From contig JANQWC010000009.1 in assembly GCA_030730025.1 (NCBI GenBank), positions 1 through 64,000 on the forward strand: a stretch of 64,000 bases of DNA, written 5' to 3'. The notes under the pieces are model-generated. The model was not told the origin of the DNA, ran no database searches, and worked only from the letters and a program-made list of their open reading frames with translations. The position numbers and the translations under genes were made by a program. Source of the DNA: Crocinitomicaceae bacterium. Its GTDB lineage: Bacteria; Bacteroidota; Bacteroidia; Flavobacteriales_D; Crocinitomicaceae. Shown here piece after piece: positions 62-2,487 of this stretch. Numbering within the stretch: the first letter of the stretch is position 1; every line of letters begins with the position of its first letter.

Positions 62-832
62 TTATTGGGTGTCTTTGGTGGCGTATTTGGCTTCGCTTTC
101 CAAATAGAAGAACGTGTACTTGATCTTTTCAATGGGCTTGATTTTTGGTACAAAAGTATTCTTGTCTGCACCAGTAGGAAGCGCTTCGAGTTGGCCTTCC
201 ATCACAAAAATATTTTTCTGCGTGCCGTAAGACCCCGCCCCGAATTCAAAATGGTATGCTTCTGTCATGGGCGTTCCGAGACCATCGAAATTTTTAAACT
301 GGAACACGCGACGAGGTGTATGATTGCTTACGGTATAGAAATCTTTGTAACTCGCATTGCGGATTCTGAAGTCTATTAAAATGTCTTTGTATGTTGTAGC
401 GCTAATGTTTTCAAAAGAAACTTTGAGAGGCAAGAGCGGAGAAGAGGGGATGGTTATGGGTGGGGAGAGCATATCGAGTTTGCCATCAAAAAAGAAAAAG
501 TAATTGAAGTTACCCATAAAGCCTAGTTCTGCACGTTTTGCAGGATTTGGTGAAGCCATCGCTTCTTTCATGGCGAAATCTAAACGATTGACGGTGATTA
601 CTGCGTCTTCTACGCCATCGGCGTCTAGCTGGGCGCGGTAAATTTTTAGCTCAAATTTTTCGTTAGCCTGTATGCCAAGTTTGGCTCTGACCATGCGGTC
701 TGCATAACTGGCCAAACTTTGCTTGCCTTTGGTTGGTAACTCTTGTGCGCTTGCTTCGGTTGTGGCAGCGTCGTTCGCTTGATCTTGACAAGACCAAAGG
801 AGGAGGGGAAGAAGTAAGAATAAATATTTCAC
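62..832 (-). CDS. putative lipoprotein, unknown function
   Basis: I do not recognise this 256-residue protein. A GTG at 832 is preferred to the ATG at 874 because it opens exactly at a lipoprotein signal (VKYLFLLLPLLLWSC, lipid-accepting Cys15) and because a Bacteroidota -7 box (TATATTTG) ends four bases before it; the ATG at 874 would lie upstream of that box. After the Cys comes an Ala/Thr/Gln-rich linker, then about 220 residues without membrane segments. An acidic turn DADGVEDAVI near residue 70 resembles the calcium turn of FG-GAP repeats, but only one copy is present. It should sit on the periplasmic side of a membrane. It is a single gene, divergent from the small gene at 1054. Coding status is likely; function is open. 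Confidence 0.75.
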   Translation of the reverse strand: MKYLFLLLPLLLWSCQDQANDAATTEASAQELPTKGKQSLASYADRMVRAKLGIQANEKFELKIYRAQLDADGVEDAVITVNRLDFAMKEAMASPNPAKRAELGFMGNFNYFFFFDGKLDMLSPPITIPSSPLLPLKVSFENISATTYKDILIDFRIRNASYKDFYTVSNHTPRRVFQFKNFDGLGTPMTEAYHFEFGAGSYGTQKNIFVMEGQLEALPTGADKNTFVPKIKPIEKIKYTFFYLESEAKYATKDTQ

Positions 833-836
833 AATA

Positions 837-844
837 CAAATATA
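837..844 (-). promoter_or_regulatory. -7 promoter box of the lipoprotein gene
   Basis: The minus strand reads TATATTTG, a full match to the Bacteroidota -7 consensus TAnnTTTG, with exactly four bases (TATT) before the GTG at 832. No clear -33 TTTG is seen. The spacing predicts that transcription starts on or next to the start codon. Confidence 0.6.
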
Positions 845-1006
845 AGGATGTCCTTTGAGAACGTTTATAAACATTGTAAAGAGGGTAGAAAGAAAAAAAT
901 GTGGATAAATTCAAAAAACCTTTACTTAAGTTAACACACTCATCATGTGAGGATTAAATAGGATTACTTACTTTGATCAATGAAATTTATATGACTTTTT
1001 GAAACC

Positions 1007-1023
1007 TTGGCACAATTCTTAGC
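1007..1023 (+). promoter_or_regulatory. sigma-54-like promoter (-24/-12)
   Basis: TTGGCAC at 1007-1013 is a full -24 element. The -12 part reads TTAGC at 1019-1023 where TTGC is expected, so either the G of TTGC is replaced or the spacing is one base long. The predicted start of transcription is near 1034, about 20 bases before the ATG at 1054. A weaker sigma-A-like arrangement (TTTG at 972-975, ACTTTTTG at 994-1001) overlaps the same stretch. Confidence 0.45.
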
Positions 1024-1053
1024 GTATCAAAGCCCAAACCAACAACAAACGAC

Positions 1054-1245
1054 ATGACCACAAGTATTCAATCTCTCCGCAGCAAATCAATTCGCCAAGC
1101 GAAATTGAAATTAGATCAGCACCGTCAACTGGGTTCACAAAGCCCTTTAAACATTTTTGAAGTTGCTGATTTATTAGACCGCATTCGTTTTACCGAAGAA
1201 AAATTAAGTGAAGAACCACAAGGTTTTGCACTGATCCTCAATTAA
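1054..1245 (+). CDS. small basic protein, unknown function (63 aa)
   Basis: This is a 63-residue protein that I cannot assign. It is soluble, rich in Lys/Arg in the first 25 residues (RSKSIRQAKLKLDQHRQ), then has a likely amphipathic helix (NIFEVADLLDRIRFTEEKL) and a short hydrophobic tail. There is no signal peptide and no cysteine. It is supported as a real gene by its own promoter-like element, an ATG about 20 bases after the predicted transcription start, and a strong intrinsic terminator 21 bases after the stop, so it looks like a complete one-gene transcript. A small regulatory, RNA-binding or ribosome-associated protein would fit the size and charge, but that is only a guess from composition. 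Confidence 0.7.
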   Translation: MTTSIQSLRSKSIRQAKLKLDQHRQLGSQSPLNIFEVADLLDRIRFTEEKLSEEPQGFALILN

Positions 1246-1265
1246 TAGTTGATTTATAGTTAGAC

Positions 1266-1298
1266 AAAAAAAGGGCTCGTTTACGGGTCCTTTTTTTT
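1266..1298. terminator. bidirectional intrinsic terminator
   Basis: An A-run, an eight-pair stem with two G-T wobbles (AGGGCTCG / CGGGTCCT, loop TTTA) and a run of eight T. The A-run makes it work from the minus strand too, so it can end both the small gene at 1054 and mnmA. Confidence 0.85.
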
Positions 1299-1311: not shown

Positions 1312-2487
1312 TTAGGCAATTACGGCAGAACCCAGCAGTTCTTCTTGTGCATACCATGCGGCAAATTGACCAGGTGCAATTCCTTTTTGTTTGTGTTCAA
1401 ATAGGATATAATAACCCGTAGCCGTTCTGAGTAACTTGGCTTTTTGCAAAGGCTGACGGTAACGGATCCGAACCAAGCAATTCAGTTCATTGGTGGTTTC
1501 AAATTCAGGATGCGTATTGATCCATGAAATACTGCTTTCGTCTAGCTTTAGTGCCCAGCGGTTTAGCCCCGGATGCTGCTCATTTTGACCACTATACACA
1601 ATGTTATTTAGCGTATCTATACCGATCACAAAGCTAGGCTCCGGACGGCCGCCAATATGTAAACCTTTTCTTTGGCCAATTGTGTAATAGTGCGCTCCTT
1701 GTTGGGTAGTTACTTGTTGTCCGTCGGAAGGTTGAAAACGAAATGGCTGGGCCAATTGCTCGATGTTGGCTATAGTTGGCGCAAGTGCTTCGTAATTTTT
1801 GAAGACAGCTAAGTTGGCAGAAAGTTCAATAACTGGCCCTTCTTTGGGCGCTAGTTGTTGTTGTAGAAAAGTGGGAAGCGCAATTTTACCCACAAAACAA
1901 AGCCCTTGCGAATCTTTTTTAGCAGCGGTAATGAGGCCGTTGTCTAGTGCAATTTGACGCACCTCAGCTTTTTGCAAATGCCCAATTGGGAACAGCGCTT
2001 TGGAGAGCTGCTCTTGGCTCAACTGGCACAGAAAATAAGATTGGTCTTTTCCGGGGTCGGCACCTGCAAGTAAGCTCAAACTGCCATCTTGGTTTTCGCG
2101 TCTTTGGCAATAGTGGCCTGTGGCAACGTAGTCGGCACCTAAATCGAGGGCCGCTTTTAAAAAGACATCAAATTTGATTTCACGGTTGCAAAGCACATCG
2201 GGGTTGGGCGTGCGACCGGCTTGGTATTCTGCAAACATATAATTGACAATCCGGTCTTTGTATTGCTCAGATAAATCGATGACTTGAAATGGAATGCCGA
2301 GCTGTTGGGCAATGAGTAAGGCATCGTTGGAGTCGTCTATCCAGGGGCATTCGTCGGAAAGGGTCACGCTTTGGTCGTGCCAATTGCGCATAAACATTCC
2401 GATCACTTCATATCCCTGCTGCTGGAGTAATAGTGCCGCAACACTGGAATCAACTCCACCGGAAAGTCCAACAACGACGCGTTTCAT
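1312..2487 (-). CDS. mnmA: tRNA-specific 2-thiouridylase MnmA
   Basis: MnmA activates U34 of the Lys, Glu and Gln tRNAs with ATP and transfers sulfur to make 2-thiouridine. The 391 residues match the family length. The PP-loop ATPase motif SGGVDSS is at residues 9-15; the catalytic pair is Cys100 (in LCNREIKF) and Cys197 (in QGLCFVGK), both present. The C-terminal beta domains hold [10 protein letters not shown] and end in the AP-GQFAAWY motif. The ATG is fixed by a TAAATTTG box four bases upstream. It is the last gene of a minus-strand run but has its own promoter. Sulfur probably comes from a cysteine desulfurase such as the one at 35163, an inference from known pathways. Confidence 0.97.

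Follow-up and report, generated by a model that had tools for sequence, protein, structure and literature searches.

A gene of only 63 codons near the start of the window (the whole stretch of 64,000 nucleotides analysed here) raises two questions: whether it is a genuine gene, and which sigma factor is responsible for its transcription. The original prediction saw in positions 1007-1298 a self-contained transcript, running from a sigma-54-type promoter through a tiny, unassigned basic protein to a terminator of its own. The features that sequence comparison establishes are the gene itself, a promoter-like pair of elements together with its conservation among relatives, a hairpin and a convergent mnmA gene. 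The explanation that we consider probable is that of a monocistronic small-protein gene of the Crocinitomicaceae for which the pair at 1000-1026 serves as the promoter, recognized by an ECF (group 4) sigma factor.

The small gene and its distribution

The predicted 63-residue gene is present as an ATG-initiated ORF at 1054-1245 (stop codon included) on the plus strand and, judged from its homologues and the selection acting on it, it is a real gene. The suggested search for homologues bore this out: a protein search found the gene in 103 of 199 genomes (its own genome counted), all of them belonging to one family of aquatic bacteria. A profile search across the phylum, covering 296 genomes, returned two, namely its own genome and one of the same genus. 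Neither search met the 63-residue protein in any other family of the order. One of the 103 matches (L070) was dropped due to an in-frame stop within its match, which leaves the set of 102 homologues used below, in which the start of one member (L052) was assigned by hand; a scan of named genomes provided 57 loci with homologues. Comparisons of the window with close relatives yield dN values much lower than dS (e.g., 0.038 vs 0.67 against L189), and by this measure the ORF is under purifying selection.

Some of the public records containing homologues carry doubtful organism labels (L192, L199, L210, L215, L223, L225, L226, L227, L236 and L242), including Chryseobacterium gleum, Chitinophaga pinensis, Sphingomonadales and Candidatus Kuenenia; these are probably misnamed metagenome bins.

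A promoter-like pair and the sigma-54-like string within it

Upstream of the gene, on the plus strand and unmentioned in the original prediction, lie a -35-like element of the ECF type, TGAAAC (1000-1005), and a -10-like element, CGTA (1023-1026), both conserved upstream of homologues and, by counts of the spacing, separated by a spacer of 17 nt (1006-1022) which holds TTGG at 1007-1010 and TTAG at 1019-1022. The pattern TGWAAC-N16/17-CGT precedes 95 of the 102 homologues, with 20-48 nt between its end and the ATG, and the remaining seven retain AAC-N16/17-CGT when inspected by eye. In the named-genome set it precedes 56 of 57 homologues vs none of 523 other ORFs from the same loci (none of 518 in a second control count), and the looser AAC-N16/17-CGTW precedes 57 of 57 vs 34 of 518 control ORFs. 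Among 45 non-redundant homologues the three -35 letters AAC occur 45, 44 and 45 times, in a spacing fit that required CGT and whose CGT column is therefore not independent.

The pair thus has the AAC at -35, the CGT at -10 and the spacer of 16-17 nt by which ECF promoters are recognized, AAC/CGT being their hallmark according to PMC8103513. It also matches every letter of TGAAACN16,17CGTA, the motif of Bacillus subtilis SigW as given in PMC2375139, although B. subtilis is an unrelated host and the pair in the window is a candidate promoter. The box of the primary sigma factor, TANNTTTG according to PMC9723704, is scarcer upstream of the 63-residue gene (8 of 57) than upstream of control ORFs (167 of 518). 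On these sequence comparisons, the promoter of the gene in its own genome looks like one of the ECF type and not of the sigma-54 type; RNA polymerase carrying an ECF (group 4) sigma factor would read TGAAAC-N17-CGTA, the pair would be used as a promoter and transcription would start a few nucleotides 3' of CGTA.

The strings on which the sigma-54 prediction was based do exist: TTGGCAC occupies 1007-1013, TTAGC occupies 1019-1023, and the ATG follows 30 nt further on. Sigma-54 sites have a GG-N10-GC spacing. TTGGCAC is a good -24 half and as such resembles known -24/-12 promoters, whereas the distance between GG and GC in the window is 11 nt, one base too long, and TGGNAC-N5-TTGC and TGGYAY-N5-TTGC have no occurrence on either strand of the window, the site of the 63-residue gene included. 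That this element is a -24/-12 promoter driven by RpoN and an activator is very improbable in our estimation, even though an rpoN gene is present in the same genome (G000:C5:36381-36857, E 4.7e-53; Sigma54_DBD was found in 118 of 120 genomes searched, this one included). The correctly spaced element, whose absence among homologues was named in advance as a refutation of the original prediction, is not conserved, TTGG-N10-GC preceding 17 of the 102 homologues and TGGNAY-N5-TTGC 12 of them, the latter vs none of 518 control ORFs, a difference in favour of an RpoN site at this place. The block AAC[CT]TTGG occurs in 43 of 77 homologues from the same genus and in none of the 25 from other genera, and where AACCTTGG is present (43 loci) the distance between GG and GC varies together with the length of the ECF spacer, being long in 29 and canonical in 14. 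The ECF pair is also kept in two homologues without TTGG (L065 and L076). In ten genomes of the genus TTGGYAY-N5-TTGCW is more common than its reversed control (60 vs 24 sites), and this too would suit a sigma-54 reading, while of ten canonical sites inspected elsewhere seven lie inside a long open frame and one is located 38 nt before a 261-codon ORF (G011, L383). On this reading the TTGG and GC bases in this genome are spacer sequence of the ECF-type pair and not a sigma-54 promoter, which illustrates how a string resembling a sigma-54 site can separate the two elements of a promoter of a different class.

A separate observation concerns the sigma-54-like site TTGGCATGTGCTTTGCT, which is shared by three genomes from the genus (L376, L383 and G020:C12:25677-25693); in L376 and L383 it is followed, after 38-39 nt, by the ATG of genes for related proteins of 261 codons.

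The 12 homologues with TGGNAY-N5-TTGC all belong to the same genus and lie outside the clade of the window, and each has a near-perfect sigma-54 site (e.g., TTGGAAC-N5-TTGC) nested in the ECF spacer, of which the window carries a version shifted by one base. These 12 nested sites may reflect a single event. It is unlikely, though worth stating, that in this group two unrelated holoenzymes vie for one stretch of DNA, with almost identical start sites; if they do, a gene with such a nested site would integrate ECF and sigma-54 signals, and RpoN would possibly block the ECF promoter.

Genes behind the motif and candidate sigma factors

When 120 genomes of the family were scanned for the strict motif TGWAACCT-N14/15-CGTAA, 84 places were found vs 165 for the reversed pattern, therefore the motif is not enriched and its number alone provides no support for a regulon. 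In the genome of the window a looser motif likewise has 10 places vs 18 for the reversed control, the nine other than the 63-residue gene lying within or across ORFs. Six of the 84 places lie upstream of homologues already known and the other 78 were read: 18 precede 63-residue homologues, 39 precede other genes, 14 are inside long ORFs and seven have nothing of 40 codons behind them. The label applied to the 18 required a terminal N and these are thus not evidence for the terminal Asn discussed below; four of them belong to a genus (g7) whose two genomes had no match in the protein search, and one (L271) lies 1 nt from its ATG because an earlier ATG was taken. None of the 39 places before other genes is nearer to the ATG than 21 nt.

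Thirty of these 39 other genes were scanned against Pfam, of which nine have no family. Hydrolases combining glucosaminidase and LysM domains stand behind the motif at six loci in five genera, one of which is the host genus, and PorP/SprF proteins at three loci, with a fourth near-identical by eye (three genera). Further genes encode HU-CCDC81 (two loci), MraZ (one locus, a second being alike by eye), outer-membrane beta-barrel proteins above the cut-off (two loci), H+-pyrophosphatase (one locus and four alike by eye, all in one genus), bactofilin and subtilase (once each). A Cas1 gene (L403) is also found, and some of the genes preceded by the motif are surely there by chance; single targets may be fortuitous, since even control ORFs can have the loose motif upstream (the 34 of 518 given above). 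As a group, the genes suggest that the Crocinitomicaceae possess an envelope regulon under ECF control. The sigma factor that reads the pair would then serve the envelope by driving genes for peptidoglycan hydrolases, PorP/SprF, MraZ and outer-membrane proteins, and the most recurrent hit of the scan in this candidate regulon would be a small protein with an invariant last residue. Among the literature matches listed for the family together with sigma factors, none describes a regulon of this kind.

In Flavobacterium psychrophilum, the ECF-type SM6 promoters have a CGT box at -10, as the window does, and their targets include type IX secretion and envelope genes, similarly to the regulon proposed here (PMC9723704). 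The likeness concerns the -10 box and the target genes; a difference is that the searches found the 63-residue protein in its own family only. SigP of Porphyromonas gingivalis is an ECF factor linked to type IX secretion genes, whose motif, as reported in PMC4800418, is unlike TGWAAC...CGTA.

A search for the cognate sigma factor covered 65 upstream regions of sigma-factor genes in four genomes, and in none of them was TGWAAC accompanied by CGTAA. This, together with the lack of numerical enrichment in the scan, would be compatible with the conserved pair being not a promoter at all, rather the operator of a repressor or an activator. Such an operator is improbable in view of the architecture of the pair (two unlike half-sites, a spacer of 16/17 nt and a distance from the ATG typical of promoters), its match to the ECF motifs in PMC2375139 and PMC8103513, and the fact that no commoner type of promoter stands in its stead. 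A promoter of the ECF type is accordingly the reading that we retain.

Related pairs are found upstream of several ECF genes of the family, namely TGCAACTTTT...GTC, TGTAACTTTT...CGTC and GGCAACC-N16-CGTT. One ECF factor (L119) was considered as the cognate one and rejected, the readable upstream regions of its orthologues carrying a different motif, TGCAACTTTT...GTC. GGCAACC-N16-CGTT lies upstream of a group of ECF genes (L319, L333, L338 and L348) in all four genomes read and is likely the autoregulatory promoter of that group. A solitary ECF sigma gene (L121/L126; G000:C26:114363-114872, minus strand) is followed by a frame which, by eye, begins like phytoene desaturase, and is preceded by repeated TTGTTTAA/TTAAACAA blocks conserved in relatives, which may be operators of a light-responsive MerR-type regulator.

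The protein, the terminator and the neighbouring genes

The protein was described as basic and unassigned; its pI of 8.2 makes it only mildly basic, and the second part of the description holds, as it fits no described small-protein family among curated protein models and solved structures. It has no match in Pfam at E 1 or in NCBIfam at E 0.1, the matches of the 45 homologues are few, weak and scattered (in Pfam three members, best E 0.02; in NCBIfam one, E 0.025), nothing close is found among PDB sequences (best E 0.62), and a Foldseek search with the model gave no hit at E 0.001 (best 0.96), returning generic helical hairpins only. In the structure model (mean pLDDT 79, pTM 0.61) helices are predicted for residues 3-29 and 34-53 and the tail is poorly predicted. 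The model thus depicts a hairpin of two helices followed by a presumably flexible tail, the last residue of which is an obligatory Asn.

L20, H23, G27, V37, A38, D42 and N63 are invariant among the 45 non-redundant homologues. The terminal Asn occurs in 102 of 102 homologues vs 57 of 552 background ORFs from the same loci, encoded by either AAT or AAC and followed by any of the three stop codons. An overlap with mnmA as the cause was ruled out, as Asn is likewise the last residue in the 67 of 102 homologues whose stop codons do not overlap, both codons being in use (the overlapping frame being taken as mnmA by its position and not by homology). Asn is thus selected at the level of the protein, since codon and stop vary and the residue is kept without the overlap. 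Two other proteins with similar ends were examined for a shared C-terminal tag and rejected: a LuxR-type regulator (L125, ...FAPSLN), the last residue of which varies among relatives, and the ECF factor L121 (...FAFSAN), whose tail is present in 30 loci of the same genus only.

A last residue kept in all homologues, although its codons and all three stops are interchanged, could also indicate a peptide that acts during its own synthesis, an arrest peptide in which the last codon and the stop matter and not the free protein. We regard this as exceedingly improbable: the conserved neighbour is convergent, so that control of a gene further downstream is not an option, and the invariant residues are mostly inside the predicted helical hairpin. 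For the free protein, we tentatively propose, with considerable doubt, a role as an adaptor or a feedback regulator, induced by stress, which would dock onto a partner through the helical hairpin and the terminal Asn, the docking surface being made up of L20, H23, G27, V37, A38 and D42 and the last residue.

Downstream of the gene, the predicted terminator corresponds to a terminator-like hairpin with a U-run at 1266-1297 on the plus strand. The plus-strand fold of 1243-1310 reaches -17.2 kcal/mol (z -3.62) and none of 200 shuffles was as good; the hairpin was absent from the list of a simple terminator scan. A weaker fold is obtained on the minus strand (-10.3 kcal/mol, z -1.65, equalled by 12 of 200 shuffles), and the hairpin may for this reason serve the convergent gene from the other side as well. 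Of the self-contained transcript originally proposed, the small gene, a promoter-like element of its own and the terminator were thus retained, and the promoter class was not.

The convergent gene is mnmA (tRNA 2-thiouridylase; 1312-2487, minus strand; Pfam PF03054, E 1.4e-79), which lies downstream of the 63-residue gene in this orientation in 115 of 129 loci, across genera. These loci come from two overlapping sets with many short stretches, so that their counts represent neither distinct genomes nor upper bounds. The stop codons of the two genes overlap in 35 of 102 homologues, leaving no room for such a terminator, and the 1266-1297 hairpin is consequently a feature that not every copy of the unit shares. 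The convergent arrangement (1243-1320 in the window, and homologous loci), with its overlapping stops in those 35, raises the question of antisense effects on mnmA. On the other side lies a divergent gene of 270 residues with a lipoprotein-like start (62-874, minus strand), which has no Pfam family at E 1 and a relative of which is found upstream of the 63-residue gene in 47 of the 129 loci.
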